From NCBI GenBank assembly GCA_030065755.1, contig JASJDA010000023.1:1-61610 (forward strand): 61,610 nt of DNA, given 5' to 3'. This DNA is from Prochloraceae cyanobacterium. GTDB taxonomy: Bacteria; Cyanobacteriota; Cyanobacteriia; Cyanobacteriales; JASJDA01. The position numbers were made by a program, and so were the translations under genes. Below the pieces are notes generated by a model. The model was not told the origin of the DNA, ran no database searches, and was given only the letters and a program-made list of their open reading frames with translations. Shown here piece by piece: positions 6,081 to 56,844 of this stretch (positions are counted from its first letter, which is position 1; each line of letters opens with the position of its first letter).

Positions 6081-6125
6081 CGTATTCAAGAACTAAAAGT
6101 GACTGGGATTATTGATTATAATTCA

Positions 6126-14650: not shown

Positions 14651-15853
14651 ATGAACGAGCCATTTTTTCCGCCACCGTCGATCGACCCCATAAAAAACCT
14701 GCGATCTCTCGAACGTCTTCGAGTTTATGACAGCTTGATGATTAATGCCGATCGCTGGCGTAAAGCACACGAATATCATCGGCAACGTCAAAATATTCAC
14801 TATCAATCTCTCGACCAGCCTGGGATTGTTTACGGACTGGGAGTGCGTAAAATTGAAGCACCACAAGAGGTTTCCGCTCAGTTTCGCAACATGCTTTGGG
14901 TGCAAGTTCAACCAGGGATTGCTATTGACTGGGAAGGTAATCCGATCGTAGTTCCAGAGGCGATCGACTTTCCATTTACTTTACCTCAATTTTCCTCAGA
15001 CGACCCCTTGACAGTATACTTGGTGGTTAGCTTTCGAGATCCAGAAAATTTAAGCAAAAAAAACGCCCAAGAGACATTTTTAGAAACTTTTAGGCTAGAC
15101 CAAAAAACTGTCATTCCCATTCACGGAGAAGTGGAATTATGCCGCATTCTTTGGGAACCAGGAACTACAAAAATTGAAAAGCCTCAAGACGTTTTATTTC
15201 CCAAGCCCAATCAATTAGACTTGCGCTACCGACTTCAAGCTAAGAGCAGACCGCAAGCTAATGTGCGTATTGGAGCCTTAGATAATTTACCTCAAAATAC
15301 CAAAGACAATCTCTCCTCTCTAATGGCTTGCGTATCTGCTCTTTACCCAGCTTTCCAAGGAGTCGAAGAAGTAGGCTCCGTGCTGTTGAGAACTCAACAA
15401 TCTGTTGCCGATTATGACCTATTTTATCTTTCCGACCGCGATTTTCAGACCCTCAAGGAAAGGGAATTTCAGATTCTCAAAGACTATTTGAAGACAGGGG
15501 GGGTTCTTTTTATTGAAGCACCTACAGGAGATCGATCTATAGAAAGTTTGAGTGCTTTAATTCCAGAAAAGCTAAATATAGGCTCATTAACTTGGGAAAA
15601 TTTAGGGAAAGATCACCCCCTCAGAAGGCAACCTTTCTTGTTTGTGGCACTGCCAGAAATTAACAGATATCCGATCGAAGTATGGCACGACGGCGGAGGT
15701 ATTATTTTAGTAGAAGGGGAACTATCTGCTGCTTGGGGATTTGACGAGGAGCTTTTTCTTTCTCGCAATGATATCCGTACAGCTCAAGAATTTGGCATTA
15801 ACCTCCTACATTTTGCTTGGCAGCGAAGAAATTTGACCGATTTGCTCAGCTAA
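14651..15853 (+). CDS. CIS-locus protein with an N-terminal CIS-associated domain and a DUF4159-like C-terminal domain
   Basis: A 400-residue soluble protein. The N-terminal part (RLRVYDSLMINADRWRKAHEYHRQRQ, then QPGIVYGLGV and VQVQPGIAIDWEGNPIVVP) matches a pattern I know from proteins encoded in contractile injection loci of diverse bacteria. Those usually start with L-x-V-x-D-G-x-x-L-x-x-x-D-W. The C-terminal part (DYDLFYLSDRDFQTL, then DYLKTGGVLFIEAPTG) resembles DUF4159, a Rossmann-like glutamine-amidotransferase-type fold without an obvious catalytic Cys. It is convergent with the cap-protein gene, separated by a 112-bp repeat. A structural or assembly role in the CIS is inferred from position only. 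Confidence 0.65.
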   Translation: MNEPFFPPPSIDPIKNLRSLERLRVYDSLMINADRWRKAHEYHRQRQNIHYQSLDQPGIVYGLGVRKIEAPQEVSAQFRNMLWVQVQPGIAIDWEGNPIVVPEAIDFPFTLPQFSSDDPLTVYLVVSFRDPENLSKKNAQETFLETFRLDQKTVIPIHGEVELCRILWEPGTTKIEKPQDVLFPKPNQLDLRYRLQAKSRPQANVRIGALDNLPQNTKDNLSSLMACVSALYPAFQGVEEVGSVLLRTQQSVADYDLFYLSDRDFQTLKEREFQILKDYLKTGGVLFIEAPTGDRSIESLSALIPEKLNIGSLTWENLGKDHPLRRQPFLFVALPEINRYPIEVWHDGGGIILVEGELSAAWGFDEELFLSRNDIRTAQEFGINLLHFAWQRRNLTDLLS

Positions 15854-15965: not shown

Positions 15966-17330
15966 TTAAAGAGGAGGTAAGAAAAACTGCGATCGTTCTT
16001 TGGAGGAATCGACGCGAACAGCCTTGGTGTCTAAGAAATCTCCCTCGAGATCGTCGTCATCATTTTCCCCAATGATTATTTTCGGTTCGCAATACTGACC
16101 CACAGTCATACTATTCGGATTGGTATCGATCCTTAAAGGACTTTCAGCACCATCTATTTGTACCCTTACCAAGTACGTGCCTGCTTTAACACCGTTAGCT
16201 GGAAAAACAATTAAGTTAGTATTATTTCCACGCCTTTTAGCTGGAAAAACGTAACTTTCTGGGTTCTTATTTGATGTTTCATTGAGTAGCAAATAAACTC
16301 GCTGTCTTTTAGTAACTTTTAAATCTACTTGAATATTTATATTAGCTGAATATAATTGCTGCCAATCCTCATTTCGATCGGTAACCGTAACTTTGCCAAC
16401 AATATTAGGGCACAATACGAAAGGAACTATATTAGATTCAATAGTGCGAATGTAGTTATTTGTATTGTTTTTTGAGGGAGATTGAATAATTTGCAAACTT
16501 TGAACCCCTGCTCGTAACTCTTTACTCTCTGCTAGAAAAAGTGCGGACAGATCTAATCGAACATTATTATTTTGAATGTTCTGAGGCGTTATTTTTGCTT
16601 CGCCGATCTTGATTTGTGTATTATTACCTTGCAGTTTTTGACCGTAAATAATTAGATTGCTCTTTGCTGTAATCGTTCCTCTGGGTTTGCTATCTGACTC
16701 TATTCTCTCAATTAGAGGACGGGCAGGTGCTACATGAGTTGCAACGCTGCGTACTGGTAATGCAGATTGTCCTTTCTTTTCACCTTCAATTAAAACTGCT
16801 TTTACTAGATAGGATAAGGACAGAGAATAAGGAGACTGAAACATGACTGACCACAATCGAGATAATTCTTCTGCCTTCATCATGGTGGGGTAAAATCTTA
16901 CTTCCTGAAGCTGTTCGGCTAAGTTAGATTCAGCTAGAAAAGGCGATCGAAAAATAGTCTCGCGAATTATTTCTGGGGTGAGCGCTGCTCGATCGACCAG
17001 AGTTCGCACCACACAGCCGAGTAATTGCTGCGGTTCCAATTCCGTCTCATTACCCAAAAAAGTAAATAAATAGTGAAGGTCTAAAGCTAGCACCTTACTT
17101 TGTGTTAATCCTGATTGGGGACGACGGGGGCGCAAATCCATATTGCGCAAAGCGTCGCTAGGAGCAGCATGGTATAAAAAGATATTAATTTTGCGCTCTT
17201 TTACCCCGCTAGCCAAAGTGTCGGGGCGTACTGTTGTGACTTGAGTACCAGGTAAGTCATTTTTTATACCAGTTTGCAATATGTTTTTCAGCGCTGCTGT
17301 TACGGTAGCAATGGCTAGATAATTGCTCAT
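15966..17330 (-). CDS. CIS cap/tail-terminator protein (DUF4255, Pvc16/Cis16-like)
   Basis: A 454-residue protein. The first ~190 residues are a DUF4255 domain: an N-terminal helix (YLAIATVTAALKNIL), the segment RKINIFLYHAAPSDALRNMDLRPRRP, then ALDLHYLFTFLGNETELEPQQLLGCVVRTL. DUF4255 proteins (Pvc16, Afp16) cap the sheath and tube at the end distal to the baseplate. The C-terminal ~260 residues add Ig-like/IPT-type beta domains (for example TITAKSNLIIYGQKL), an extension seen in some relatives. The gene is on the opposite strand to the sheath gene, so both may be controlled from the shared 304-bp gap at 17331-17634. Confidence 0.88.
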   Translation of the reverse strand: MSNYLAIATVTAALKNILQTGIKNDLPGTQVTTVRPDTLASGVKERKINIFLYHAAPSDALRNMDLRPRRPQSGLTQSKVLALDLHYLFTFLGNETELEPQQLLGCVVRTLVDRAALTPEIIRETIFRSPFLAESNLAEQLQEVRFYPTMMKAEELSRLWSVMFQSPYSLSLSYLVKAVLIEGEKKGQSALPVRSVATHVAPARPLIERIESDSKPRGTITAKSNLIIYGQKLQGNNTQIKIGEAKITPQNIQNNNVRLDLSALFLAESKELRAGVQSLQIIQSPSKNNTNNYIRTIESNIVPFVLCPNIVGKVTVTDRNEDWQQLYSANINIQVDLKVTKRQRVYLLLNETSNKNPESYVFPAKRRGNNTNLIVFPANGVKAGTYLVRVQIDGAESPLRIDTNPNSMTVGQYCEPKIIIGENDDDDLEGDFLDTKAVRVDSSKERSQFFLPPL

Positions 17331-17634: not shown

Positions 17635-19359
17635 ATGGCTCGTTTAGATTATTCTGCTCCTGGTGTCTACGTCGAAGAGATTCGGCGCGGTAGTATGCCG
17701 ATTGACGGAGTAACTATGAGTGTTGGTGGATTTATTGGTTTTACTCAAGAGGTGCGAGCTGGTGCTCGACTTTTTGAACCAACTCTAGTAACCAGTTGGG
17801 ACCAATATCTAGAATACTTTGCTACTCCTGGTTCCGAAGGCTACACTTCTTTTGGATCTTATCTACCCTATGCTGTCCGAGGATGGTTTGAAAACGGGGG
17901 AGGTCGCTGCTGGATTGTAAGTATCGGCACTCAACTTCCCAATGCTAAAGCCAAAAAGAACTCTACTGGTGAAGCGGCGACAATGACAATTAATACTGTC
18001 GGAAAGCGTCCTAGCCTAGAGTTTAAAATTAAGCCAGAACAAGCGGAAAACGGCAGACTTAATATCCGAATCGAACCCGACGAACCTCGTCCATCTGAAG
18101 ATCCTGAAGACGAACCTTTTGATACTGGGGAATACTTTAAGCTCTCAGTTATAAGGGGCGACATAACTGTCACAGAGACTGTTATAGATGCCGACGGTGA
18201 AGAGCAGGAAGTTGAAGCTGTTTACAGGCATCTGACTCTCAATAGAGACGTAGCTCAAGAAGAAGGCACTTATGTGGAAACGGCACTTGCCGATTCTAGC
18301 TATGTAGAAGTTAATATCGCGTCCGAAAGAGGGCTTCCTCTGGCTCGCAGACCTGCTGACGGTCAATACGAAATCAGTCCCCCACCAGTTCTCTATAACA
18401 CTAAAGAATTGGCATATAAGATGTACGGGAAAAATAATGACCGTACAGGGATTCAAGGTTTATTTGAAATCGATGAAGTCTCTATGATTTCCTGTCCCGA
18501 CCTGATGTTTACCTATCAAAAGGGTTTACTAAACTTAGATCAGGTTCACGGGTTGATGGAGATGATGATTACCAAATGCGAGAACTCAAGTCCCAATCCT
18601 TCTTATCGAATGGTCGTCTTAGACATTCCTCCTGTAAGAGTAGGACAAAATGATGACAAACCCGTTCTTCCAGAACAGAACCGACCCCAGGACGTTGCTC
18701 GTTGGTTAGATTACTTCGGACGACGCTCTCCATACGCGGCTACTTACTATCCTTGGATTAAGGTTCCAGATCCTGCCAAAAGAGGACAGCCAATTCTCAT
18801 TCCTCCTTCCGGCCACATGATGGGAATTTGGTGTCGCACTGACGAAAGTCGCGGAATTCACAAAGCTCCAGCTAACATAACTCCCAGAGGAGTTATCGGT
18901 ATGGCTTACGATACTAATTTTCGCGAGCAAGAACTTTTAAACCCTCTAGGGGTTAACTGTATACGCAAATTCCCTAACCGTGGAATTCAGGTTTGGGGGG
19001 CTCGTACTCTGGTAGAACCTGCTGACACTGAATGGCGCTATATTAACGTTCGCCGATTAATGAGTTACATTGCTCGCTCTGTAGAGCTAGGAACTCAGTG
19101 GGCAGTTTTTGAACCTAACGACGAAGATCTTTGGGCGAGAGTTAAGCGAACTGTTGTTAATTTTCTAGATAGGCTCTGGAAAGAAGGAGCACTATACGGC
19201 AGTACTGCTGACGAAGCTTTTTACGTAAAATGCGATGCCCAATTAAATACTCCAGAAACCATAAAATTGGGTCGGCTTTACGTAGAAGTAGGCGTTTCTC
19301 CTGTAAGACCAGCGGAATTTGTTGTCTTCCGTATCGGTCAGACGAGTACTAACGAATAG
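17635..19359 (+). CDS. CIS contractile sheath protein
   Basis: A 574-residue phage-tail-sheath-family protein, the contractile outer layer that drives the inner tube. The N-terminus MARLDYSAPGVYVEEIRRG is the typical sheath linker start. The C-terminal domain is diagnostic: WRYINVRRLMSYIARSVE, FEPNDEDLWARVKRTVVNFL, LWKEGALYGSTADEAFYVKC and LYVEVGVSPVRPAEFVVFRIGQ. The middle (about residues 100-260) is a variable surface domain. It is the first gene of a forward run and is followed after 91 bp by the tube gene. Only one sheath gene is present. Confidence 0.97.
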   Translation: MARLDYSAPGVYVEEIRRGSMPIDGVTMSVGGFIGFTQEVRAGARLFEPTLVTSWDQYLEYFATPGSEGYTSFGSYLPYAVRGWFENGGGRCWIVSIGTQLPNAKAKKNSTGEAATMTINTVGKRPSLEFKIKPEQAENGRLNIRIEPDEPRPSEDPEDEPFDTGEYFKLSVIRGDITVTETVIDADGEEQEVEAVYRHLTLNRDVAQEEGTYVETALADSSYVEVNIASERGLPLARRPADGQYEISPPPVLYNTKELAYKMYGKNNDRTGIQGLFEIDEVSMISCPDLMFTYQKGLLNLDQVHGLMEMMITKCENSSPNPSYRMVVLDIPPVRVGQNDDKPVLPEQNRPQDVARWLDYFGRRSPYAATYYPWIKVPDPAKRGQPILIPPSGHMMGIWCRTDESRGIHKAPANITPRGVIGMAYDTNFREQELLNPLGVNCIRKFPNRGIQVWGARTLVEPADTEWRYINVRRLMSYIARSVELGTQWAVFEPNDEDLWARVKRTVVNFLDRLWKEGALYGSTADEAFYVKCDAQLNTPETIKLGRLYVEVGVSPVRPAEFVVFRIGQTSTNE

Positions 19360-19450: not shown

Positions 19451-19939
19451 ATGACATTTGCAATTGAGACTAATAACAGTGGGGTAGGAGAACTACTAAC
19501 AGGTTGTAAGTTCTATTTAGAAGCTGACGGTATCTCTGACAAATTAATTTTAGAAGTAAGTGGTTTATCCGTAGAAAGCAAAGTAGCAGGAGAAAAAGTA
19601 AGCGGTTCGGGAAGAGGCGGTCAAAAACTGCGTCAAGCTACTCCAACTAGCGAAACTTTTGAGCATCTCAAAATCAAAGTAGCAGCTACTGTAGACCTCG
19701 ATCTTTACGATTGGTATAAAAACTGTAACGATAATGCTGGCGGTGCGTCTCAATGGGCATCTAATCGAAAAGCATTATCTGTAAGTGCTTACAACCAAGC
19801 TGGTGAAATGAAAGCTCGTTGGGAAGTAGTTAACTGTTATCCTTGCAAATATTCTGGTCCAGAATTTAAATCCGAAGACGAAAACTTAGCAAATGAAACT
19901 ATTGAATGTACTCATGAAGGAATTCACAGAGTACAGTAG
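19451..19939 (+). CDS. CIS inner tube protein 1 (gp19/Hcp-like fold)
   Basis: A 162-residue protein of the T4 gp19-like tail tube family. The family pattern is visible as KFYLEADGISDKLILEVSGLSVES, then LKIKVAATVDLDLYDWYKNC, KALSVSAYNQAGEMKARWEVVNCYP and a closing beta-strand ANETIECTHEGIHRV. Tube subunits stack as hexameric rings inside the sheath. The AAGGAG site 8 bp before the ATG is strong, as expected for a protein needed in many copies. It directly follows the sheath gene. Of the three tube paralogs here this is the best candidate for the main tube subunit. Confidence 0.92.
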   Translation: MTFAIETNNSGVGELLTGCKFYLEADGISDKLILEVSGLSVESKVAGEKVSGSGRGGQKLRQATPTSETFEHLKIKVAATVDLDLYDWYKNCNDNAGGASQWASNRKALSVSAYNQAGEMKARWEVVNCYPCKYSGPEFKSEDENLANETIECTHEGIHRVQ

Positions 19940-20025
19940 GCAATCAATTAACTTTTAAAAATATTTACAGAAGCTTTGTGTCTCTAACAAAGCTTCTTTC
20001 ACTTAAGTTTTTTGGAACAGGTTGG

Positions 20026-20487
20026 ATGGAACTCCCAGAAATTCTTACAGCTAGTCATTTTCATCTTCAAATAGAATTAGATGGTTCTACTCTAATAGAC
20101 GGATATTTTCTCGAATGTAAAGGATTTAAGTTGGCTGCGGATTTAGTTGAAATTGCCGAAGTTACTCCTGGTGGTAGAGTTGTTCGCACCAAAATCCCTG
20201 GCAATCTAAAAACAGGAGGCAATCTTACTCTCAGACGAGGCATGACCAATTCTGAAACCTTGTGGGAATGGTTTAGTATAGTTCAACAAGGACAATGGGC
20301 TAAAAAGCGCACCAATGGCGCTTTAATTATTTACAATCAAAGTGCCAATCGACAAACTAGGTTTGAGTTTGAGGAATCTTGGCCAGTTAGTTATGTAGTT
20401 GCTGACGTGCGCGCTGATTCTGGAGACCTTGAAATCGAAGAATTAGTAGTAGCTTATAGCTTGTTTAATCGAGTTGATGTGGGGTAG
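20026..20487 (+). CDS. CIS inner tube paralog 2 (tube or tube-initiator)
   Basis: A gp19-like protein of about 153 residues from ATG 20026, preceded by GGAACAGG; a GTG at 19978 is an alternative that would add 16 residues. Family features: ASHFHLQIELDGSTLIDGYFLECKG, GNLKTGGNLTLRRGMTNSETLWEWF, GALIIYNQSANRQTRFEFEESWPVSY and the closing ELVVAYSLFNRVD. Afp/PVC-type systems carry more than one tube-like protein, and the extra copies form the rings nearest the spike. This one may play that role. It follows tube 1 by less than 90 bp. Confidence 0.88.
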   Translation: MELPEILTASHFHLQIELDGSTLIDGYFLECKGFKLAADLVEIAEVTPGGRVVRTKIPGNLKTGGNLTLRRGMTNSETLWEWFSIVQQGQWAKKRTNGALIIYNQSANRQTRFEFEESWPVSYVVADVRADSGDLEIEELVVAYSLFNRVDVG

Positions 20488-20581: not shown

Positions 20582-23044
20582 GTGAAGTTAGTAGACGTAT
20601 TCAATTTTGTTGAAAGAAAGTATTCTGAAGTTGCCAACTTCGTTACCTATCCTGGTCAAGTTTTATACATGAGGGCCAGACTCTTATTTCACCATAAAAT
20701 GAGAGAAATAGACGTTCCTATTGGCGACGATAAATCTTCTAGACAGACTTCCAGAAATAACAGAAAGAACAGAAATAAAGATCTAGTACAAGAATTTCAA
20801 GAAAGAGCAAGCGAGTATAAAAGATTCTTACCTGGAGGAGACGATCGGGATCGAGAAGAATCTGTTGAACCCCAAAATAAATCTCGTAGAAGTAGACGAA
20901 GAAGAAGTAAAATAGCCGCTACCCAGACAGAAGATCCTGTTGTTGTCGAAGTTGCTCCTGGAGAAATTCCTCCCTTACAAGAAGGTCAAGAAATTCGCGG
21001 ACGTAGAGGTAGATATAAATGTTCTGGAGAAATTCTTTTACAAGAACAGACAGTTCGCGTTTATAAAGGAATTCACACCCAAAGCAATAAAGCAGTAATT
21101 ATTAAAGAATATTTGCTTCTCGATCGAGATTATAATGAAGAAGAACGTAGAGCTTGTAAAGAAAAATTTGCTAACGTCTCCAACATTAATTTTAGAAACG
21201 GAAGTAGTAAAGATTTTCGCATTTTTAGCCCCATAGAAGCGATCGCTCCTCCAAGAGAAAAACGTTGCTATCTAATTACTCAACCAGTTGAAAATAGTAT
21301 AACTTTAAAAGAATATATAGAAAGAGAAGGTTCTTTAGCTCCTTCCCAAGTAGTAAGTATCTTAGATCAAGTTTTACAAACCCTTTGGTTTCTTCACACT
21401 AACCGAATTCGCTTACCCTCCAATAACCAAGTTCAAAAGGGAATTCCCCACGGTAACTTAAACCTTTCAACAATCTCTATTGTTCTCAGCGAGAGTTACT
21501 CTGAAAATAGTGACGAACCGCTACCTTTAGCTTACGTATCGGATTTAGCAGTTTGGGAACATTTATTTTTACCTCCCAATTCTCCCTCTATTAAAACTTC
21601 GGTCAGTCAAGATTTAGCTGACTTAGGAACTGTTAGTTTCCATCTCTTAGCTGGTGAAACTGTAGATAGTAAGACTAATCTACCTTTGGATCCTCGCGAT
21701 GAAGAAAACTGGCCGTATACAGATGAAGTACTTATAGAATATATCGAACGTCTTTTAAGAATAAATGGTAAATTTCAGAGCGCTTTCGTAGCTCGTCAAG
21801 AATTATTAAAGCTAAAGAACAACAAGGAATTTGAATATCAAAATATTGACGAGACAGAGACAGAAGTTCGACAAAACTATTTAGAGGAAGCGACTAAAAA
21901 AGTTTCCCCAATAACAGGATGTTTGACATTATTAGGTTTATTAGGAGTACTGGGATTAATAGGAGGAGGCTCTTATTTCTTAGTTAACCGATTTTTTATT
22001 GCACATAAGAGAGCTTATAAACATTTTTCCACAGAAGAGCCTGCTGTTTGTTGTTTTAATAAAGTGAAGCTAGCAAACGGACAATTTGACTATACAGTTA
22101 GTAATGGAATCTGGGAACGGGTATTCGATCGTCGAGGAGCTGTACAACACAACGTCAGTTTAAAACAAGAGCTAGAAAACCGAGATCCGATATTAAAACA
22201 GTATAAATATATTAAATATTCAAACGAGGATCCAATAGAAGCTCTCAAAAATGGAGATATAGATTTTGCCTTAGGGAGATGGAACGAGAATCTCTCTGAG
22301 GATTTAGAACAAGAAATTGTAGCTTATCACGGTTTAGCTGTTTTTGTAGCCTACAGCGACGATCTAACCAAGAAAAGTCTTCCTAAAGCTTTTTCTGGAA
22401 AAATATCTCTTGACGACTTGCGAAAGCTCTATACAGGTAAAGGAGGAGACTGGAAACAACCAAAAGAGGTAAAAGATTGGAAAGTGAAATTATACGCTCC
22501 CTTCGAGATGGACGCGATCGCCTTATTTGAAGAAATACTTTTTGGCAGCGATCGAAGCGATAAGATTGAAGAATATAGAGAATTTACCGATCGAATTATC
22601 TCCAGACAAAAACAAACACTAAGCGAAGAGAAGATCGATCGACCGAGAACTGGATATTTGCTTGGTGAAGTATTTCAAGATTTTGAAAATCAGCAAACAG
22701 TTGGGATTGGTTTTAGTTATCTAAGTACGATTTTCGGTCAATGTTCTGTCTATCCACTAGCAATAGTAAAGGACAAGAAAGAAATTCAGCCCTTAGCTAC
22801 AGTCGATGGGAAAGCGATTTCAACCAAAACAGATTTATGTGATGATAAAGGAGGGTATTGGCCTAATGTTGAAGCTTTCAAATCGCAACAATACGCTTTA
22901 GGATATAGCCTAGTGGTGGTCTATCCTAAAAACGACAAAGAGCGAGCTTTGGCTGGCAAAAGATTTGCCGATTTTCTCAAAACTGATGAAGGACAATATT
23001 TACTGAGAGAAGCTGGATTAGTTCCTTTACGAGTCTTACCATAG
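20582..23044 (+). CDS. Pseudokinase - transmembrane - PstS-like solute-binding fusion inside the CIS locus
   Basis: An 820-residue, three-part protein starting at GTG 20582. Residues 1-50 form a short unknown domain, followed by a very basic linker (RNNRKNRNKD, RRSRRRRSK). Residues ~140-400 have a protein-kinase fold: AVIIKEYL keeps the ATP-site Lys. The catalytic loop reads HGNLNLSTI (HRD Asp replaced by Asn) and SDLAVW stands where DFG should be, so it is very likely a pseudokinase. One membrane span lies at ~443-466 (GCLTLLGLLGVLGLIGGGSYFLV). Residues ~475-820 resemble a PstS-type solute-binding protein (LDDLRKLYTGKGGDWKQ; final GQYLLREAGLVPLRVLP). The kinase part should face the cytoplasm and the binding domain the periplasm or lumen. 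It lies between tube genes in the same direction, so a CIS role as sensor or anchor is plausible but unproven. Confidence 0.85.
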   Translation: MKLVDVFNFVERKYSEVANFVTYPGQVLYMRARLLFHHKMREIDVPIGDDKSSRQTSRNNRKNRNKDLVQEFQERASEYKRFLPGGDDRDREESVEPQNKSRRSRRRRSKIAATQTEDPVVVEVAPGEIPPLQEGQEIRGRRGRYKCSGEILLQEQTVRVYKGIHTQSNKAVIIKEYLLLDRDYNEEERRACKEKFANVSNINFRNGSSKDFRIFSPIEAIAPPREKRCYLITQPVENSITLKEYIEREGSLAPSQVVSILDQVLQTLWFLHTNRIRLPSNNQVQKGIPHGNLNLSTISIVLSESYSENSDEPLPLAYVSDLAVWEHLFLPPNSPSIKTSVSQDLADLGTVSFHLLAGETVDSKTNLPLDPRDEENWPYTDEVLIEYIERLLRINGKFQSAFVARQELLKLKNNKEFEYQNIDETETEVRQNYLEEATKKVSPITGCLTLLGLLGVLGLIGGGSYFLVNRFFIAHKRAYKHFSTEEPAVCCFNKVKLANGQFDYTVSNGIWERVFDRRGAVQHNVSLKQELENRDPILKQYKYIKYSNEDPIEALKNGDIDFALGRWNENLSEDLEQEIVAYHGLAVFVAYSDDLTKKSLPKAFSGKISLDDLRKLYTGKGGDWKQPKEVKDWKVKLYAPFEMDAIALFEEILFGSDRSDKIEEYREFTDRIISRQKQTLSEEKIDRPRTGYLLGEVFQDFENQQTVGIGFSYLSTIFGQCSVYPLAIVKDKKEIQPLATVDGKAISTKTDLCDDKGGYWPNVEAFKSQQYALGYSLVVVYPKNDKERALAGKRFADFLKTDEGQYLLREAGLVPLRVLP

Positions 23045-23054
23045 AATTAAAAAA

Positions 23055-23216
23055 ATGACAGATAAAGATAGAGCTAGAGAAATTGACGAATTAGCAAGGA
23101 AAGTTTTAGAAAACGACTTACTGTTATTTCGCGTTACTGAAGCAGTTCGTGAAAAGATAAAAGAAGATTTAGACAATCAACGCGAGCGATCGCTCGCAAG
23201 GAGGAAGTTGTACTAA
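23055..23216 (+). CDS. Small charged protein (53 residues) in the CIS operon
   Basis: A 53-residue ORF starts at ATG 23055, ten bases after the fusion gene. It is highly charged and helical by eye (TDKDRAREIDELARKVLEND, ending ERSLARRKLY). Its TAA overlaps the ATG of the next tube gene by one base (TAATG), and its 3' end carries that gene's strong AAGGAGG ribosome site. Tight packing and coupling support a real gene. Small baseplate-associated proteins are common in CIS loci, but I do not recognise this one. Confidence 0.65.
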   Translation: MTDKDRAREIDELARKVLENDLLLFRVTEAVREKIKEDLDNQRERSLARRKLY

Positions 23217-23821
23217 TGGCTGCTGGAAACGAAATCGGAAATATATTAGGTAGTACGGGTGGTGGTGCAAAGCTCAATACGACCGAGCTTGCTGGATTGC
23301 CCGAAGAGGCTTTTAGCAAGGACAGCCAAAATAACTACGTTACTGCTAATCGCTTTTATGTGGAAATGGGTAGCGCCAATGTAGCTGCATTTGCGGAATG
23401 CTCGTCTTTAAGTGTTAAAATTGACCACGAAAAAATCCATGAAGGTGGAGCTAACGATCGACAAAGAATTCTGATAAAACAGGCTCAGTTTGACGATATA
23501 ACTCTCAAGCGGGGTATTACTAATAACTTTGCTTTTTGGAATTGGACGCACGATGTCATGACAGGCAAGGTACAACGCCGAAATATTAATATTCTCGTCT
23601 ACAACCAAGCTGGCAAAGTTATGCAAGCCTGGGGTTTGAAGGCTGCTGTTCCAGTTGCCTGGAAAACCCCTGCTTTACAAGCAGATGCTAAGGTTGTAGC
23701 TATAGAAGAATTAACTCTTGCTTATGAAACAATAGAAGTATCTAACGCAAAATTGGGAGGTGCAATTCTTCTCAAGCCAGGAAGGGGCCTGCTAGGGGAA
23801 TATACCGATAGTATTCTTTAA
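23216..23821 (+). CDS. CIS inner tube paralog 3 with an N-terminal extension
   Basis: A 201-residue gp19-like protein. The tube domain starts near residue 40 (YVTANRFYVEMGSANVAAFAECSSL). It continues with QAQFDDITLKRGITNNFAFWNW, INILVYNQAGKVMQAWGLKAAVPVAW and ELTLAYETIEV. The first ~40 residues (glycine-rich, then LAGLPEEAFSKDSQ) and the last ~20 are extensions not found in the other two copies. Such longer tube-like proteins usually sit at the tube-spike junction (the Afp5 or gp54-like position); that placement is inferred. It is translationally coupled to the upstream 53-residue ORF. Confidence 0.88.
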   Translation: MAAGNEIGNILGSTGGGAKLNTTELAGLPEEAFSKDSQNNYVTANRFYVEMGSANVAAFAECSSLSVKIDHEKIHEGGANDRQRILIKQAQFDDITLKRGITNNFAFWNWTHDVMTGKVQRRNINILVYNQAGKVMQAWGLKAAVPVAWKTPALQADAKVVAIEELTLAYETIEVSNAKLGGAILLKPGRGLLGEYTDSIL

Positions 23822-23911: not shown

Positions 23912-24367
23912 ATGTCCGACCAACCTAAAGACAGCAGTACTAGAAATGCAACCAATAATTTAGCTGAAAGTAGAGATGGAAACAAGCCTAAATCTTTCGC
24001 TCGAAGTAAAAAAGATCAAATCAGTGATGAAGAAATAGAACTATTAGCAGAAAACATCTATATCCGTTTGCGAGATTATTTATATACTGAAAGAGAACGC
24101 AAATATGGTTTTAATGATGCCTATCTTCCTTGGTCAACTAAGATTGTAAAAAGTAATGTATTTGGGAGCGGTACTTCTTTGAGCGGTACTTCTTTGGATG
24201 GAGAAGATACAGCTCTATATAAAGTCGATATGGATTATTCTGTATCAACAATTCAAAATCAGTTAGAGCTGCTTACTAAAGAAGTATATGTAATAATACA
24301 ATTCCTAACGAAAACAGAAAAAGAGCGCATGGGAGCATACGCTCATACCTTTCTTTACGACTATTAA
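23912..24367 (+). CDS. Unknown CIS-locus protein (151 residues)
   Basis: Not recognised with confidence. The first ~35 residues are polar and probably disordered. A helical stretch follows (DEEIELLAENIYIRLRDYLYTERERKYG). A GTSLSGTSLDGEDTALYKVD linker leads to a C-terminal helix pair (STIQNQLELLTKEVYVIIQFL) and the aromatic end AHTFLYDY. There is a tandem 12-bp repeat (GGTACTTCTTTGAGC) at about 24170-24195 inside the gene. It lies in the forward CIS run, 90 bp after tube paralog 3, so a minor structural or adaptor role is likely. Confidence 0.7.
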   Translation: MSDQPKDSSTRNATNNLAESRDGNKPKSFARSKKDQISDEEIELLAENIYIRLRDYLYTERERKYGFNDAYLPWSTKIVKSNVFGSGTSLSGTSLDGEDTALYKVDMDYSVSTIQNQLELLTKEVYVIIQFLTKTEKERMGAYAHTFLYDY

Positions 24368-24384: not shown

Positions 24385-24933
24385 TTAGAAAAAATCATCA
24401 AAAATATTGCCAATAAATGAGTCTGAGTGATGATTATTATTGGTATCAGTACTAGTAGTTCTCTTAGGTTTAATGGCACCTCCACCACCGTCATTGGTCT
24501 GTTCGGCTTCTTTGAGAGTTAGAGAATCAAACACAGCTCTTGCTGGGGTCCCATTAGCCAGAAACATAGTATATTTAAAGGACAGGTCTTGTACAAAGCA
24601 ACGTTTTATGTATATTTCACCACCCCACCTAAATGTATAAATAGGAGGACGTTGTAACCCTGGAGCAAATTCAATTGCTTGTTGAAATTTTGATATATAT
24701 TCTTCTGTAACACTTTTTCCCTGCTCGTATGTATCAAATATTATATTTTTGAGTGTAATTTCAAGAGGTTTACGGTTAGAATAACTAACTTTTGGAATAC
24801 CTTTGTCAGAGCGAGCGCCTTTACTATCAGCCGTTTCTATACCTACTTTTACTGGTATTTCTTGGGGATTAAACATAAAAATAATATCAGGAGTCCCATC
24901 AAGTGACTGAAGCATTGCTTTAGTTGTGTTCAT
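24385..24933 (-). CDS. CIS tube/LysM-type adaptor protein, short form without LysM (Cis7/Pvc7-like)
   Basis: A 182-residue protein. Its N-terminal pattern is that of the CIS tube-adaptor domain (Pvc7/Afp7/T4 gp53-like): FMFNPQEIPVKVGIE, the small aromatic SYSNRKPLEITLKNIIFDTYEQG, IEFAPGLQRPPIYTFRWGG and FVQDLSFKYTMFLANGTPARAVFDSLTLKE. Relatives usually carry a C-terminal LysM domain that joins tube and baseplate. Here the C-terminus is a short low-complexity Gly/Lys/Asn/Asp tail, and no LysM is seen. It is encoded on the minus strand between two forward CIS genes, which is odd for a structural component and suggests separate regulation or an inversion. Confidence 0.78.
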   Translation of the reverse strand: MNTTKAMLQSLDGTPDIIFMFNPQEIPVKVGIETADSKGARSDKGIPKVSYSNRKPLEITLKNIIFDTYEQGKSVTEEYISKFQQAIEFAPGLQRPPIYTFRWGGEIYIKRCFVQDLSFKYTMFLANGTPARAVFDSLTLKEAEQTNDGGGGAIKPKRTTSTDTNNNHHSDSFIGNIFDDFF

Positions 24934-25096: not shown

Positions 25097-26893
25097 ATGG
25101 GATTAAATGGTTCTTCTGGTGATAAAAAAGATTATCAATTTGAACTGGCTATTAAAGTTAATGGGTCAGAGGTAAGTCAAACTATATTACAAAACATCTT
25201 ACAAGTGGTTGTAGAAGAAAGTCTCTATATGCCCTCCATGTTCACTATTGTCATCCGAAACGATCTCGGTCCAGGAGGAGAGGGAGATAGGATCTGGCAA
25301 TACGACCAGTTTACAATCGGTCAGAAAATAACAATTGGTTTTGCTATGGTCCAGACTCAAGTTTTTGTGGGTCCAGAACAAAACCCATACCTTTGTCAAG
25401 GAAAAATCTCTGCCGTACAAATTCCTTTTAGTAAAAGATCTCAAGCTCCTATAGTAATAAGAGGGTATAGCGAAGAGTATCCTCTTCATTTAGGACGCAT
25501 TAATCGCACTTTTGTAGATCAAACTGACAGCCAAATTGTTCGCAAAATTCTTACAGAACACGGTCTGGAGATAGATAGAATAGACGATACTGGGGTGAGG
25601 CGCAAACACGTATACCAGGCCAATATAACCAACATGGAGTTTATCCGGCAACTGGCTGTCCGCAACGGTTATGAATTCTACTCCCAATTCGACACCCAGA
25701 AAAAGACGACCGTGGTGGGTTTTTGCAAATCTCATTCTAGGGGCAAACTAAAAACCAAATGGCTTGACAAAGGTACGAGCGGTAGCAAAACTTTCACCCC
25801 AGATAGTAGCGATTTAATTGTTTTAGATGGTATTCGGCTAACGTTGAATGCTGCCGAACAAGTTAAAAAAGTCAAGGTAAATTCTTGGTTTTATCAGAAA
25901 AAGGAATTAATACATTCTGAAAAGTCAAAAAATAAGACAGTTGTTAGTGAGTCTGACGCACTTAAAGCCGACGACGTACCTGGGAAAATGGGAGGTGGAG
26001 CTTCAGAACTGTCAGTAGTAAATCTGCAATGTCAAAATCCTGAGGAAGCAGACCATATCGCTCAAGGTATTTGCGATCGAGTTAGAGGAGAATTTCTTCA
26101 GGCTGAGATAGAAGCAGAAGGCAATCCAAAAGTTAAGCCAGGAAAGGTTATCGAACTCCAAGACGAAGATCTCGGCAGATATAAAGGCGAATATTACATT
26201 GGCGACACTCGCCACGTTTACCAACCAGACCGCGAAAGGACTTATACCGTCCATTTTACAATTCGAGGTCTCAAAGGAGGAAATTTAGTATCTTCTCTAT
26301 CTAGTCCCAATCAGCTCGAACCAGGACAAACCCTTTTGATTGGACTCGTTACAGACAACGAAGACCCAGATAACATGGGTAGAGTAAAAGTTAAGTTTCC
26401 CACCCTCACAGAAGAACATACTAGCTATTGGGCGAGAGTTGTCAGTGTTGGTGGTGGAAAAAAAAGAGGAGTTGAATGGCTCCCAGAGATAGATGATGAA
26501 GTATTAGTAGGATTTGAACACGGAAATATAAATAAACCCTATGTAGTTGGCGGTCTCTGGAATGGCAAGGACGAACCGCCAACCAACGTTAAAGAAACTG
26601 TTGTTGACAATAAAGTACGCCTGCGCACCCTCCAGAGTCGAGTTGGTCACATAATCCAGTTGATCGACGAAGATAAAGGCGAAAGTAAAACAGGAATTCA
26701 CATTATTACCGAAGCAGGACACCAAATTTATTTAAACGATAGCGACAAAAAAATTCTTATTAAATCAAAAGCAGGTCATACAGTTGAACTTAACGACGGG
26801 ACCAAAACCATGAATATTGAATCTATAGGAGATTTGAATATAAAAGCTGCTGGCAATATCACAATACAAGGAGTAACGATCGCCCTCAACTAA
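25097..26893 (+). CDS. CIS spike protein, VgrG-type (gp27-gp5-like)
   Basis: A 598-residue spike protein. Residues ~1-390 form the gp27-like late-control-D part (YQFELAIKVNGSEV, PIVIRGYSEEYPLHLGRINRTF, TDSQIVRKILTEHGLE). Residues ~405-490 form the gp5 OB-fold (IGLVTDNEDPDNMGRVKVKFP, ARVVSVGGGKKRGVEWLPEIDDEVLVGFEHG). The C-terminal beta-helix runs from GHQIYLNDSDKKILI to the end. The trimer should sit at the baseplate centre under the tube, and a PAAR protein would sharpen its tip. No toxic C-terminal extension is present: the chain ends with the helix. It starts 160 bp past the divergent adaptor gene. Confidence 0.95.
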   Translation: MGLNGSSGDKKDYQFELAIKVNGSEVSQTILQNILQVVVEESLYMPSMFTIVIRNDLGPGGEGDRIWQYDQFTIGQKITIGFAMVQTQVFVGPEQNPYLCQGKISAVQIPFSKRSQAPIVIRGYSEEYPLHLGRINRTFVDQTDSQIVRKILTEHGLEIDRIDDTGVRRKHVYQANITNMEFIRQLAVRNGYEFYSQFDTQKKTTVVGFCKSHSRGKLKTKWLDKGTSGSKTFTPDSSDLIVLDGIRLTLNAAEQVKKVKVNSWFYQKKELIHSEKSKNKTVVSESDALKADDVPGKMGGGASELSVVNLQCQNPEEADHIAQGICDRVRGEFLQAEIEAEGNPKVKPGKVIELQDEDLGRYKGEYYIGDTRHVYQPDRERTYTVHFTIRGLKGGNLVSSLSSPNQLEPGQTLLIGLVTDNEDPDNMGRVKVKFPTLTEEHTSYWARVVSVGGGKKRGVEWLPEIDDEVLVGFEHGNINKPYVVGGLWNGKDEPPTNVKETVVDNKVRLRTLQSRVGHIIQLIDEDKGESKTGIHIITEAGHQIYLNDSDKKILIKSKAGHTVELNDGTKTMNIESIGDLNIKAAGNITIQGVTIALN

Positions 26894-27481: not shown

Positions 27482-27913
27482 ATGGCGGGTAAAGCTAATA
27501 AAGACGACGATTACGTCGGTTATGGATTTGCTTATCCTTTACGAGTAAATCTTCAAGGAGAGTTCGATCTGAGCAGCGGAGAAACAAATATAGAGGAATC
27601 GATTAAAATTATCTTGCGCACCAATCTAGGAGAGCGATTATATCGACCTGATTTTGGCTCTCGCTTGTCCGAGTTAGAATTTGAACCAGTCAACGCGGAA
27701 ACTCTTTTACTTAGCAAAATGTATACTGAAGAAGCAATCAAGAAATGGGAACCAAGAATTAGTTTAAAACAAGTAATAGCCGAGCCAAAAATGGATGGAA
27801 GCTTAATAGACCTCAGGATCGTGTATGAAATTAAAAAAACTCGCAATACCCATAGTATGATATACCCATTTTATGTAGTTCCAGAAGACAACAGTTTTGA
27901 AAGCCCTTCTTGA
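27482..27913 (+). CDS. Baseplate wedge protein, gpW/gp25 family (Cis9-like)
   Basis: A 143-residue protein of the GPW_gp25 family. The signature is GETNIEESIKIILRTNLGERLYRPDFGSRL, then LEFEPVNAETLLLSKMYTEEAIKKWEPRI. gp25-like proteins start sheath polymerisation at the baseplate: their fold mimics a sheath subunit. It opens the baseplate gene run gp25 - gpJ-like - gpI-like, as in Afp/PVC clusters. Length is normal for the family. Confidence 0.95.
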   Translation: MAGKANKDDDYVGYGFAYPLRVNLQGEFDLSSGETNIEESIKIILRTNLGERLYRPDFGSRLSELEFEPVNAETLLLSKMYTEEAIKKWEPRISLKQVIAEPKMDGSLIDLRIVYEIKKTRNTHSMIYPFYVVPEDNSFESPS

Positions 27914-27999: not shown

Positions 28000-30297
28000 A
28001 TGGAAGAACTTGACTTTTTGCCAGATTTACCCAAGCCCAACCTGGACGATCGGAAATTTGAGGATTTGCTGAATGAGTGCATTCTGCGCATTCCTCGCTA
28101 CTGTCCGGAGTGGACTAATCACAACCCCAGCGATCCAGGTATAACCTTGATCGAACTATTTTCTTGGCTCACCGAGCAAATGTTAATGCGGTTCAATCAA
28201 GTTCCTTTAAGAAATTACGTAAGTTTTCTGGAGTTGTTAGGCATTCGCCTAGACCCTCCCATTCCAGCCCAGGCTATCCTGACATTTTACTTTACAAAGG
28301 TGCGTCCAGGTGCGGTTATAATTCCCAACCAAACGGAAGTGTCAATAAGTAACGACCAAACACAAGAGCCGATCGTCTTTACCACAGCTCGCGAATTGCA
28401 CGTTGGCAACCCTATTATCAAGCACTTTCTAACCGCTAAACTCAACGTCAAACCATCTCAAACCCACCTGCGCAACTATACTCCCATCCCCCGCAACCCA
28501 GATGACCCAATAACACAAGAACAGTGGCGATATCTAGGCGAGTTTAAAGATGTCGTTCTCTTTGAAGAATCTAGACCTGGTAACTGTCTGTATATAGTAT
28601 TAGACGACTCAGAGCCAGATTGCACCGTAGCTGGAAACGTTATTTCAATTAATTTCAGAGGAGAAGCGGCTAGAGCTACTGGAATCAACCCCGACAATCC
28701 TCCCCTCCTGTGGGAAGCTTGGAATGGGAAAGAGTGGCAGTCAGGTATTCTCAGCAACAAAGAAGACGATCGAACTCAGGGATTTAGTTTTGACGATGCC
28801 GGACAGCAAGGAACAAATCCGATCAGACAAGGAGCAGAGGTAGAGTTACACTTGCCATTGGAGTTGCCAAAAACTAATTTAGGAACTAATTACAGAGGAT
28901 ACTGGGTTCGCTGCACCTATACTCCTCCCAATGAAAACCAGCCAGGTTACAATAGCTCTCCGATTATTTTGGGCTTGTCAGTCAAGTCTATTGGTAGCGC
29001 AGTTAAAGCAACCGAGTGCGTCCAAATTCAGCGAGAAATGCTAGGAGTTAGTAACGGTAAAGCGGGACAAAATTTTCAATTGCGAGAAACCCCTGTAATA
29101 CAAAGGCAACTGGAGTTAGACGAATATATAGAATTAGTTTTACCCAGCGGGGAAACAGAAAAATGGGAAGAAGTCGAGAACTTCGCTAATTCCGCTGGGG
29201 AAGACCCCCACTATACTATTGATTCGAGAACGGGTATAGTTCAATTTGGACCCCTAATTAGAGAACCAGCAGCACTCCAGCAAAAAACGCGGCAGCGGCT
29301 TCAAGTTCAACCGAAAACTGCTAAGTGGGAATACCGCAGAACAGGCGATCGCCGTCTCGCTCCTAGCAGCAAAGCAGCAGATTTAGATAAAACCCTACCC
29401 GAAAGACAATACGGTAAAGTTCCCCCTCCAGGCGCAGAAGTATATATGGTTGCTTACCGTACCGGAGGAGGAAGCAAGGGAAATGTCAAAGCTGGAACTC
29501 TCACTAGATTGAAAACTTCCATACCCTATGTTAAAACCGTTATCAATCACGAAGCAGCACGGGGTGGAGTTGACGCAGAATCTTTAACAGACGCAGCCTT
29601 AAGAGTTCCAGAGATACTGCGCTCTCGCGAAACCGCAGTTACTCCCAAGGATTTTGAAGTTATTACTCGAGCGGCGAGTAAGAAAGTTGCTCGCGCTCAT
29701 TGCGTCACAAATGCTGACAGTAACGTCCCAGGAACCGTACGTCTGCTTATTGTTCCAGCGATCGAAGCCAATTCGATCGACTTTCGGGGGAAATTTGTTA
29801 AAGGAATGGATCCAAATGAAGTTTTTGCTCTAGATGACGAACTCCAAAAAGACATTCAAGCTTATCTGCGAGAGCGCAAACCCTTGGGAGTGCAAGTCAA
29901 ATTAGAAGAGCCCGATTACGTAGGAGTTAAAGTAGAAATAGAAGTCATATTAGAACCCAGATACAATAACGTAGAAGACAAAGTAGAGATCCGTCAGCTA
30001 ATATTAGCTACTTTGTATCGCTTTCTCAATCCTATTACTGGGGGTCTAGAAAGAGAAGGTTGGCCCTTAGGTCGTCCTTTATATTCCTCAGATATCGTAT
30101 CTCAATGTCGAAATATTTCTGGGGTACGCAATCTCGGAACTGTCACCTTGTTTGAATCCCGTAAAGACTCTCAAGGCTGGTTTCTCCAAAACAGACCCCT
30201 CTCAACCATCCACCCTGGAGATAGAGGAATTATTTGTTCTTGGGACGATAAAGACCAAACCCTACCGTCGGGACACCGCATTAGTTTTATCGATTAA
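28000..30297 (+). CDS. Baseplate J-like protein (gp6/Afp11-like; Cis11)
   Basis: A 765-residue baseplate protein. The N-terminal motif NHNPSDPGITLIELFSWLTEQMLMRFNQVP (residues ~45-75) is characteristic of the Afp11/Pvc11 group. A baseplate-J-like domain follows in the second half (VKTVINHEAARGGVDAESLTDAALRVPEILRSRETAVTPKDFEVI). The C-terminal segment LATLYRFLNPITGGLEREGWPLGR is also conserved. It forms the wedge ring that links spike and sheath. It is 86 bp after gp25 and 27 bp before the gpI-like gene. Confidence 0.95.
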   Translation: MEELDFLPDLPKPNLDDRKFEDLLNECILRIPRYCPEWTNHNPSDPGITLIELFSWLTEQMLMRFNQVPLRNYVSFLELLGIRLDPPIPAQAILTFYFTKVRPGAVIIPNQTEVSISNDQTQEPIVFTTARELHVGNPIIKHFLTAKLNVKPSQTHLRNYTPIPRNPDDPITQEQWRYLGEFKDVVLFEESRPGNCLYIVLDDSEPDCTVAGNVISINFRGEAARATGINPDNPPLLWEAWNGKEWQSGILSNKEDDRTQGFSFDDAGQQGTNPIRQGAEVELHLPLELPKTNLGTNYRGYWVRCTYTPPNENQPGYNSSPIILGLSVKSIGSAVKATECVQIQREMLGVSNGKAGQNFQLRETPVIQRQLELDEYIELVLPSGETEKWEEVENFANSAGEDPHYTIDSRTGIVQFGPLIREPAALQQKTRQRLQVQPKTAKWEYRRTGDRRLAPSSKAADLDKTLPERQYGKVPPPGAEVYMVAYRTGGGSKGNVKAGTLTRLKTSIPYVKTVINHEAARGGVDAESLTDAALRVPEILRSRETAVTPKDFEVITRAASKKVARAHCVTNADSNVPGTVRLLIVPAIEANSIDFRGKFVKGMDPNEVFALDDELQKDIQAYLRERKPLGVQVKLEEPDYVGVKVEIEVILEPRYNNVEDKVEIRQLILATLYRFLNPITGGLEREGWPLGRPLYSSDIVSQCRNISGVRNLGTVTLFESRKDSQGWFLQNRPLSTIHPGDRGIICSWDDKDQTLPSGHRISFID

Positions 30298-30324: not shown

Positions 30325-31320
30325 ATGGTTCAAACTGAATCTGTTGCACCTTTATCGTTACAACTCGCCCCCCAGCGTTTTTTAGACGCAACCTCTCCCA
30401 CTGGGGAAAATGTGTTGAATCTGCTAATATATCCAGGAATAATCAGCGACCTGCTATTTCAACTGGAGAATACTAGCAATCGCTCTTTGCGATGGAGACT
30501 TGAATTAGAGGGAGAGTTTCCCTCCAATTGGTACAATTGGACACAGGAAGAAGATGAAAAAGAAATTGCTTCCCATCAAAAAATAACCAAAACAATTCGC
30601 TTCTTTATTCCTGGAGACTTTTTTGAAAATCAGTTTGCAGTAACCGATCGACAACCTCAATTAAAACTAAACTATGAAGCGCGAATTCTCTTGTACGTCG
30701 AGCAAAACAATAGAAGCCAGTTAGTCGTATACCGACTTTTTTCTATTTTCGTGCGTCTTCCCAGCACCTATATAAATCTTTTGCCCCCAATGTACAAAGA
30801 AGTCGATTTCTTAAATCGATTTTTAAATATTTTCGAGCAAACTTTCGATCCAGCCGTGCAGACTTTAGGAGTTCTCTGGGCGTATTTAGACCCTTTGACA
30901 GCACCAGAATCGATGTTGCCTTTTCTGGCTCGTTGGGTCGCTTGGGAAATAGACGATCGCTTGGATATTAAACGACAGCGACGTTTAATAAGTAATGCCG
31001 TTACACTATATCGCTGGCACGGAACTCTTTTTGGACTGCGTTTCTATCTTCATTTATGCACTGGTTTGCCTCTAGACGAGCATTTACCAGAACCAGAAAA
31101 ACACATTGGCATCGAAGAAGTTTTTAATGACGGCTTCATTTTAGGCGAAACTATCCTCGGTCAAGACTCCATAATTGGAGGCGGACGACCATATCATTTC
31201 TTCGTCTATTTGCGTCCCGAAAAATCTCAGCAAATAGAAGAGAATTTAGTCAGAGAAATAATCGAGCGAGAAAAACCTGCTTTTTGTACTTACGAACTCA
31301 ACATTATTTATCGAGACTAA
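30325..31320 (+). CDS. Baseplate protein of the tail P2 gpI type (Afp12/Cis12-like)
   Basis: A 331-residue protein. The second half holds the phage-tail gpI pattern: LLPPMYKEVDFLNRFLNIFEQTFDPAVQTL, then LPFLARWVAWEID and ISNAVTLYRWHGTLFGLRFYLHLCTGLPL. The first ~140 residues are a beta-rich domain (LSLQLAPQRFLDATSPTGENVLNLLIYP) that resembles the Ig-like start of the next two genes. With the gpJ-like protein it should form the baseplate wedge heterodimer. The downstream gene begins 55 bp later. Confidence 0.9.
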   Translation: MVQTESVAPLSLQLAPQRFLDATSPTGENVLNLLIYPGIISDLLFQLENTSNRSLRWRLELEGEFPSNWYNWTQEEDEKEIASHQKITKTIRFFIPGDFFENQFAVTDRQPQLKLNYEARILLYVEQNNRSQLVVYRLFSIFVRLPSTYINLLPPMYKEVDFLNRFLNIFEQTFDPAVQTLGVLWAYLDPLTAPESMLPFLARWVAWEIDDRLDIKRQRRLISNAVTLYRWHGTLFGLRFYLHLCTGLPLDEHLPEPEKHIGIEEVFNDGFILGETILGQDSIIGGGRPYHFFVYLRPEKSQQIEENLVREIIEREKPAFCTYELNIIYRD

Positions 31321-56643: not shown

Positions 56644-56844
56644 AGTCAGTTTTGTCAAATTAAGTAACGCTAGGCTTAAATTCTCTTAAAGTATCTCAAA
56701 CTAACCTAAAGTATGACACGATCTAAATCGGAAATGTTTCTGTAAAATTTATAAAATTAACTGGCAAATGGTAACTAGTCAGGCAAGACAAAGGTTATTG
56801 TAATTAAAGAAAATTTTTAACAATTAAGAACAAAAAAGCCCACG

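Follow-up and report, generated by a model that had tools for sequence, protein, structure and literature searches.

A receptor-like pseudokinase with a PstS-like domain as a near-obligatory partner of one contractile injection system lineage in cyanobacteria

Introduction

How free-floating intracellular particles of contractile injection systems (CIS) find the membrane and decide when to fire is an open question, to which CisA has provided a partial answer in Streptomyces. This work concerns KINPBP, our label for the 820-aa product of an open reading frame (ORF) at 20582..23044 (+) in a stretch of 61,610 nt from a Prochloraceae cyanobacterium (contig JASJDA010000023.1, positions 1 to 61,610, forward strand), hereafter the window. 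As judged from sequence profiles, the protein joins a degenerate kinase domain, a membrane span and a PstS-like domain in one chain, and in cyanobacteria it goes almost obligatorily with one CIS lineage and not with other CIS types. Because it accompanies this single CIS type with very few exceptions, KINPBP probably anchors the machine to a membrane and gives it the signal to fire.

CisA (SCO4242), from the cytoplasmic CIS of S. coelicolor, is a one-pass membrane protein with a cytoplasmic N-terminus, and contraction inside the cell requires it (PMC12237407). Its extracytoplasmic C-terminal domain was likened by the authors to solute-binding domains, and a role as a sensor and checkpoint was proposed (PMC12237407). 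A contact between CisA and Cis11 has been predicted, and CisA is without density in the particle structure (PMC12237407). Peptides of the protein were present in crude preparations after nisin (PMC12237407) and in 3/3 purifications by another group (PMC10020575). The C-terminus has also been read as 'sugar-binding' (PMC10066040) and as 'carbohydrate' (PMC10020575). CisA homologues have been reported in Streptomyces and other actinomycetes, and a 2026 study gives close homologues as absent in the Roseiflexus CIS of the same lineage (PMC12998442).

Kinase-fold proteins have been described in other export machines. EssB/YukC has a single-pass topology, and its extracytoplasmic part is not known to be PstS-like. 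Within type VIIb secretion its cytoplasmic pseudokinase domain has a non-catalytic role (PMC12599244); KINPBP resembles it, by description, as a pseudokinase in a secretion machine, although the machine is a different one. In the type VI secretion system (T6SS), PpkA and Fha control assembly, and PpkA phosphorylates Fha (PMC12607579). The CP1 pseudokinases annotated in cyanobacteria are described as lacking membrane spans and as linked to COG3899 (PMC12599244), and on these described features a CP1 identity of KINPBP was set aside. Finally, the thylakoid CIS (tCIS) of Anabaena is tied to the thylakoid through the span of Cis13 and an extension of Cis12 (PMC8894136).

No description of KINPBP was found among the papers listed from the open-licence literature on CIS, pseudokinases, FHA and solute-binding proteins, supplements being outside this scope. 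The word 'kinase' is absent from the main text of PMC8894136, PMC12237407, PMC10020575, PMC12998442, PMC11566945 and PMC10066040, the 3 uses of it in PMC8213781 do not concern KINPBP, and the text of a 2025 review of bacterial pseudokinases (PMC12599244) lacks the word 'contractile'. KINPBP is, in this literature, a CIS component not found described in print.

Anatomy of KINPBP and its family

The KINPBP ORF runs from a GTG start to a TAG stop with 0 internal stops. Its parts are listed below; counts of rows refer to a family alignment of 49 rows including the window protein, from which four short or cut entries (L084, L086, L087 and L089) of an initial 53 had been dropped.

20582..23044 (+), KINPBP: N-terminal motif followed by a degenerate kinase domain, a single membrane span and a PstS-like binding domain (Pfam, alignment, hydropathy, profiles, co-occurrence)
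20582..20722 (+), N-terminal segment of about 45-47 residues, possibly a docking segment (by-eye likeness among orthologs)
20999..21817 (+), degenerate protein kinase domain, about residues 140-412 (Pfam, alignment, profile comparison)
21104..21106 (+), ATP-site Lys175 (K175, in VIIKEY), kept in 40/49 rows (alignment)
21449..21457 (+), HGN (290-292; HGNL 290-293) replacing HRD, the catalytic Asp missing in 49/49 rows (alignment)
21542..21550 (+), DLA (321-323) replacing DFG, with Asp kept in 46/49 rows and Gly in 2/49 (alignment)
21911..21985 (+), single membrane span, about residues 444-468 (hydropathy)
22085..23032 (+), PstS-like (PBP_like_2) domain, about residues 502-817, predicted extracytoplasmic (Pfam, profiles, topology prediction)
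22742..22840 (+), stretch bounded by Cys721 and Cys753 (GQC...LC), both Cys present in 49/49 rows (alignment)

As a single sequence, the window protein scores below the Pfam cut-offs both for Pkinase (residues 159-276, 21.6 bits against 31.7) and for PBP_like_2 (residues 542-801, 20.2 bits against 27), and its sole match in the NCBIfam scan is a weak PstS-family one. PBP_like_2 exceeds its cut-off of 27 in the orthologs L064 (43.8) and L112 (33.6), and the match is absent from the Pfam scan of ortholog L110. When a 45-row KINPBP profile is used instead of the single sequence, both assignments become significant against solved structures, with the PstS-type proteins 4q8r (2e-9) and Sll0540 (8e-9) and the Ser/Thr kinase 4eqm (2e-6) being reached. 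The orthologs can be aligned across both the kinase and the binding halves. A preliminary description of this DNA, made from its letters, had proposed a fusion of a pseudokinase, a membrane span and a PstS-like domain inside a CIS operon, and the intact ORF, the profiles, the one span and the CIS neighbours bear it out.

In the kinase half, that description had correctly read the ATP-site Lys of VIIKEY as kept and HGNL as standing in place of HRDL. Its third motif needs amending: SDLAVW does replace DFG as far as Phe and Gly are concerned, but the Asp of the motif (D321) is itself retained. The catalytic Asp of HRD is replaced by Asn in 43 of the rows, and the Trp of DLALWE is present in 49/49. 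Kinase homology together with the loss of the HRD Asp marks the family as pseudokinases, which presumably lack phosphotransfer; active kinase motifs such as those of PpkA were not found in any of the 49 rows.

A span separates the two halves in 49/49 rows, 5 of which show extra weak hydrophobic stretches. Lys and Arg residues beside it average 3.4 on the kinase side against 2.0 on the other, being more numerous on the kinase side in 30 rows, equal in 13 and fewer in 6, a distribution consistent with a cytoplasmic kinase half. Beyond the span, Cys721 and Cys753 form a probable disulfide. The N-terminal segment is alike by eye in the in-operon orthologs L090-L093, L095, L110, L039, L063, L078, L079, L083 and L167. 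Many other orthologs have CxxC pairs in its stead; a CxxC motif lies inside the first 200 residues in 93/129 orthologs of at least 690 aa, ahead of the kinase domain in those inspected.

The outer domain contains many of the family's invariant columns, and its binding-loop residues are variable among the 49 rows. In PstS-type proteins phosphate is bound by an SGT motif. This motif is absent from the aligned loop-3 stretch in 49/49 rows, and a paralog in the same genome (L008, see below) does not have it either. Phosphate had been offered as an example of a ligand in the preliminary description; because the binding-loop residues differ, a phosphate receptor is unsupported.

These features bear on whether KINPBP might be a passive membrane tether, with two degenerate halves that do no more than keep the particle at the membrane and respond to no ligand. 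Such a tether would agree with the variation of the binding-loop residues and with a diverged copy whose kinase half goes unrecognised (in genome G184, see below), whereas the retention of the ATP-site Lys in 40/49 rows and the wealth of invariant columns in the outer domain argue for something more, and we regard it as distinctly unlikely.

Co-occurrence with one sheath type

The presence of KINPBP was compared with that of the sheath type encoded beside it in two sets of genomes. The class sample comprised 194 cyanobacterial genomes, with a threshold of E<=1e-20 for KINPBP and of 1e-20 for the sheath, whose matches were sorted by score; the second sample comprised 386 genomes with a sheath threshold of 1e-80, and 8 hit genomes are common to both. 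In the class sample KINPBP occurs in 50 genomes, this sheath type in 50 and both in 49. One of these sheaths, that of G003, was counted on an incomplete match (67% over residues 3-106) where a contig breaks off; if G003 is set aside, 49 sheath genomes remain, of which 48 are shared. Any sheath match was present in 80 genomes, 50 of which have this type, and at E<=1e-20 KINPBP was found in 0/30 genomes having other sheath types only. The second sample gave 22 genomes with KINPBP, 22 with the sheath and 21 with both.

When both samples are pooled there are 66 carriers, counting a truncated copy in G115 and a relative in G184, and 64 of them have this sheath, an association stronger than the coupling of a receptor-like protein to an injection machine that had initially been suggested. 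The pooled sheath genomes also number 64, all 64 with KINPBP if the G184 relative counts. G184, an exception in both samples, is a sheath genome missing KINPBP at threshold, and its diverged relative, found with the profile, is flanked by a TPR gene and the third tube gene, in a CIS region with tube, Cis7 and Cis8. The G115 copy, the other exception of the class sample, is a 370-aa frame ending after the span, in a genome without a sheath match at 1e-5. G469 is the other exception of the second sample (see below).

Genera with a mixed distribution were also observed. In genus g6, G107 and G471 have both KINPBP and the sheath, and G087 and G129 have other sheaths only and no KINPBP; G107 carries two KINPBP and two sheaths of this type. 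In genus g10, G291 has both and G136, G178 and G240 have neither, and in genus g16 both are present in G289, G324, G415 and G506 and neither in G191. Among 72,556 plasmids KINPBP matches 3 (Kovacikia, Pseudanabaena and Brasilonema), which are the top 3 plasmid records for this sheath. Chance placement near a CIS is ruled out by this co-occurrence even where the genes are not neighbours. Likewise, the sheath matches and the 0/30 result rule out a component of an Anabaena-type tCIS.

The CIS operon around the gene

The genes around KINPBP in the window are the following.

14651..15853 (+), protein with a partial CIS13-family match (below cut-off), a DUF4159 C-terminus and no span (NCBIfam/Pfam, hydropathy)
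15966..17330 (-), Pvc16/Cis16-like cap or terminator protein (Pfam Pvc16_N, E 7e-41)
17635..19359 (+), sheath, best solved match 8bky of a Streptomyces CIS (search of solved structures, Pfam)
19451..19939 (+), tube protein 1 (gp19; Pfam)
19978..20487 (+), tube protein 2 (gp19; Pfam)
23055..23216 (+), 53-codon ORF with no family match, between the KINPBP stop and tube protein 3 (ORF reading)
23216..23821 (+), tube protein 3 (gp19; Pfam)
23912..24367 (+), short protein with no Pfam match (Pfam scan)
24385..24933 (-), Cis7-like CIS_tube protein (Pfam)
25097..26893 (+), Cis8/VgrG-related spike (Pfam, NCBIfam)
27482..27913 (+), Cis9/gp25 (Pfam)
28000..30297 (+), Cis11 baseplate J, best solved match 9gtp of a Streptomyces CIS (Pfam, search of solved structures)
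30325..31320 (+), Cis12-like Tail_P2_I protein (Pfam, NCBIfam)
31376..33694 (+), protein with Ig-like part, membrane span and WD40, of Sco4256-like architecture (Pfam, hydropathy)
33675..36497 (+), protein with Ig/NEW3-like part, membrane span and a C-terminal part without Pfam match (Pfam, hydropathy)

As had been noted at the outset, KINPBP sits between tube genes with short gaps: 94 nt separate it from tube protein 2 upstream, and the 171 nt to tube protein 3 downstream contain the 53-codon ORF. Since this ORF begins 10 nt past the KINPBP stop and overlaps the ATG of tube protein 3, the arrangement suggests that the three are on one transcript. Its place resembles that of the DUF6760 gene of a Streptomyces CIS. 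In many other loci the slot of 23912..24367 holds a protein of ~900 aa that looks of low complexity.

Compared with solved structures, the sheath matches 8bky (5e-112), 8bl4 (6e-110), 9ezm (4e-90) and, much more weakly, All3325 of the Anabaena tCIS (7b5h, 2e-49), and Cis11 matches 9gtp at 3e-99; 8bky, 8bl4 and 9gtp are entries of Streptomyces CIS papers. Because sheath and Cis11 match Streptomyces CIS best, the host system is called type IId-like and not an Anabaena tCIS, a class assigned by these closest matches and not by a subtype tree. Both are membrane-tied cyanobacterial CIS if KINPBP acts as proposed, and they would differ in the tie itself: hydropathy gave no membrane span in Cis11, Cis12 or the Cis13-like protein here, and the latter thereby differs from the membrane-anchoring Cis13 of Anabaena. 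The two Ig-like proteins with a span recall Sco4256 of Streptomyces, which has an Ig-like domain, a span and a variable C-terminus.

Elsewhere in the window, 42855..43973 (+), 20 kb downstream, encodes a 372-aa PBP_like_2 protein, a relative of the KINPBP outer domain with a hydrophobic-looking N-terminus. Two adjacent ABC transporters with two N-terminal FHA domains each lie at 50946..53657 and 53866..56658 (-). The DnaE frame at 2148..6089 (-) looks intein-interrupted, and its end resembles the N-terminal half of a split DnaE intein.

Linkage and neighbouring genes across the family

Linkage to the CIS is looser than co-occurrence. It was assessed in 132 loci, 52 from genomes and 80 from named records; the latter were the top 80 among 151 matches, and some places occur twice. 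A CIS structural gene lies inside the fetched flank in 95/132 (35/52 and 60/80), the third tube gene being the CIS gene most often near KINPBP orthologs (77/132), and gp19-type tube genes are nearby in 89/132. The fusion is thus not mostly found outside CIS loci, and 64/66 carrier genomes hold this CIS. In G013, KINPBP and sheath share a 4.66-Mb contig on which 3.8 Mb separate them, or 0.8 Mb should the contig be circular.

Two explanations that set KINPBP outside the working of the machine can be weighed on these placements. The first makes it cargo or an effector of the particle, or a matching immunity protein, as its gene inside the cluster of the window would allow. It is very improbable, considering that Pfam and NCBIfam scans gave no toxin domain in KINPBP, that the protein has a membrane span, and that it goes with nearly every CIS of this type, in many cases without being its neighbour. 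The second makes it a bystander receptor of unrelated function, for which one could cite active-looking relatives of the same architecture away from CIS genes (see below) and the loci with no CIS structural gene in their flank. With nearly all carriers having this sheath and none of the genomes with only other sheaths carrying KINPBP, hardly any likelihood is left to it.

Signalling genes recur in the neighbourhood. An FHA-type gene cluster lies directly downstream on the same strand in 27/132 loci, the FHA assignment coming from the cluster representative L148 only (FHA E 1e-13, with a weak zinc-ribbon match). A cluster of ~377 aa, whose representative is histidine-kinase-like by look, occurs near 46/132 loci, mostly just upstream. 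In Brasilonema the FHA gene overlaps the 3' end of KINPBP, and the upstream annotation includes a histidine kinase along with a response regulator. The representative of another cluster, near 38/132 loci, looks by its motif like a DUF4157-type effector. Large kinase-like proteins were also seen in Deinococcus: a CIS there (L172:11631-16409) encodes a protein of 1592 aa in which kinase, FHA and Ig parts follow one another, which reads HGD and DFG and has a single strongly hydrophobic stretch, and a CIS cluster of D. grandis (L189:1662-6470) encodes a protein of ~1600 aa with a kinase-like start, HGN and DFG.

KINPBP could, on this view of its neighbours, be an assembly regulator instead of an anchor or trigger, gating where or whether particles assemble and serving as a scaffold for the FHA protein and other kinases. 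The directly downstream FHA-type gene, the histidine-kinase-like cluster and the kinase-FHA-Ig protein of the Deinococcus CIS are in agreement with it, and so is the precedent of PpkA and Fha, which govern T6SS assembly (PMC12607579) and likewise pair an inner-membrane kinase-fold protein with an FHA protein in a contractile machine. PpkA is, however, an active kinase; because the catalytic Asp is lost in 49/49 rows of the KINPBP family, its mechanism as such cannot apply, and an FHA gene adjoins KINPBP in a minority of loci. We therefore hold assembly regulation to be unlikely, although it deserves consideration.

Comparison with CisA

As CisA, KINPBP is predicted to cross the membrane once with its N-terminus in the cytoplasm and its C-terminus outside it, and it belongs to the same CIS lineage. 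The preliminary description knew of no CIS component of this kind, a statement that needs amending in view of CisA, whose way of working is comparable (PMC12237407). Two CisA candidates, P0002 and P0003, picked by gene place and architecture, stand in here for the SCO4242 sequence. No sequence similarity was found between KINPBP and P0002. Zinc ribbons and a C-terminus of F5/8C type are present in both candidates (P0003 to PF25302 at 2e-12, P0002 weakly to F5_F8_type_C at 0.014), which fits the sugar-binding reading of CisA (PMC10066040), whereas KINPBP has kinase and PstS-like domains. The cisA gene lies directly downstream of baseplate genes and that of KINPBP between tube genes; CisA carries a Cys-rich zinc-binding segment just before the span, and the window KINPBP has no such segment. 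Searches with P0002 and PF25302 gave no match in 20/20 carriers, P0002 being without a positive control and PF25302 being found in 1/2 Streptomyces plasmids and 0/14 control genomes.

Sequence, domain content and gene place thus rule out membership of the CisA family when compared with P0002 and P0003. Because P0002 shows no similarity and the domain content is different, KINPBP is best read as an analogue, and not a homologue, of these candidates. Among known proteins CisA is nevertheless its nearest counterpart in function. A CisA- or Sco4256-like protein in the between-tubes slot of Streptomyces was also considered and rejected, the slot of S. cadmiisoli holding a long low-complexity protein with no span.

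Origin from active receptor kinases

The genome of the window encodes an active-looking protein of the same layout, L008, in which a kinase with HRDIKLSN and DFG retained is followed by a span and a periplasmic binding protein (PBP) domain. L008 is collinear with the KINPBP family from the kinase through the span to the outer domain (hhalign probability 99.9, E 4e-36) and differs from it in its intact HRD and DFG. A second such protein, L193, is likewise active-looking (HRDIKPGN and DFG retained), and no CIS structural genes were found in the fetched flanks of L008 and L193, that of L193 being short and at a contig end. The kinase-span-binding-domain architecture is seen away from CIS genes in L008 and in the C291 copy. 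A search for this architecture therefore gave a divided answer: the pseudokinase family tracks the CIS, but the generic layout also occurs elsewhere. In the same genome, L002-L008 carry what we take to be TPR-like, CHAT-like, kinase and other N-terminal parts on the same PBP type, named by look, and these PBP-fused proteins look like a large receptor-like family.

In the tree, a long, fully supported branch separates 27 family rows from L008 and L193. Since the same genome encodes collinear active-looking proteins, the KINPBP family most likely derives from an active receptor Ser/Thr kinase of the same architecture; the direction from active to dead is inferred, as the tree has two active-looking rows only and no outgroup.

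Proposed role in membrane recruitment and firing

We consider it reasonably likely that KINPBP is a dedicated receptor pseudokinase of the type IId-like cyanobacterial CIS that serves membrane recruitment and firing, as CisA does. The kinase half would face the cytoplasm and bind the cytoplasmic particle at its baseplate or tube end, with nucleotide perhaps acting as a switch, and in lineages having a next-door FHA protein it may bind that protein as well. The binding half, in the periplasm or the thylakoid lumen, would be the sensor, whether of a ligand, of a protein or of a state of stress. The resulting change would cross the membrane without phosphotransfer, and the particle would be recruited to the membrane and its firing permitted.

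Several observations weigh against this role. The folds assigned to KINPBP come from sequence profiles and its function is deduced. In the window copy Lys/Arg are equal in number on the two sides of the span (3 each), so that its predicted topology rests on the relatives. Only the binding domain of the G184 copy is recognised by the family model (3e-29, one-sequence search). In G469, KINPBP lies beside tube, Cis7, Cis8, gp25 and Cis11 in a genome that has other sheaths only (this CIS cluster is L185). The remaining 37/132 loci have no CIS structural gene in the fetched flank, and Fisher values for the co-occurrence overstate independence because the genomes are related. Finally, the two Ig-like operon proteins with a span might be the anchors instead.

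If KINPBP does link the membrane to firing, one can tentatively picture how it arose, in a scenario that we hold to be possible and somewhat doubtful: an active cyanobacterial receptor kinase would have been captured by a CIS that kills or lyses its own cell, phosphotransfer would have been lost, and a signal from the periplasm or lumen would now be passed directly to the baseplate as a change of shape, with the kinase-fold proteins of Deinococcus CIS clusters from this lineage representing a second, parallel capture.

Significance

CIS of this kind may have a part in programmed cell death and lysis in cyanobacteria, and KINPBP is a strong candidate for their missing membrane and firing part. 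It offers a specific gene to delete and a specific outer domain with which to search for the signal. If the proposed role is true, CIS would be the second protein-export machine, after the type VII system with EssB, to have a membrane pseudokinase as a structural part.

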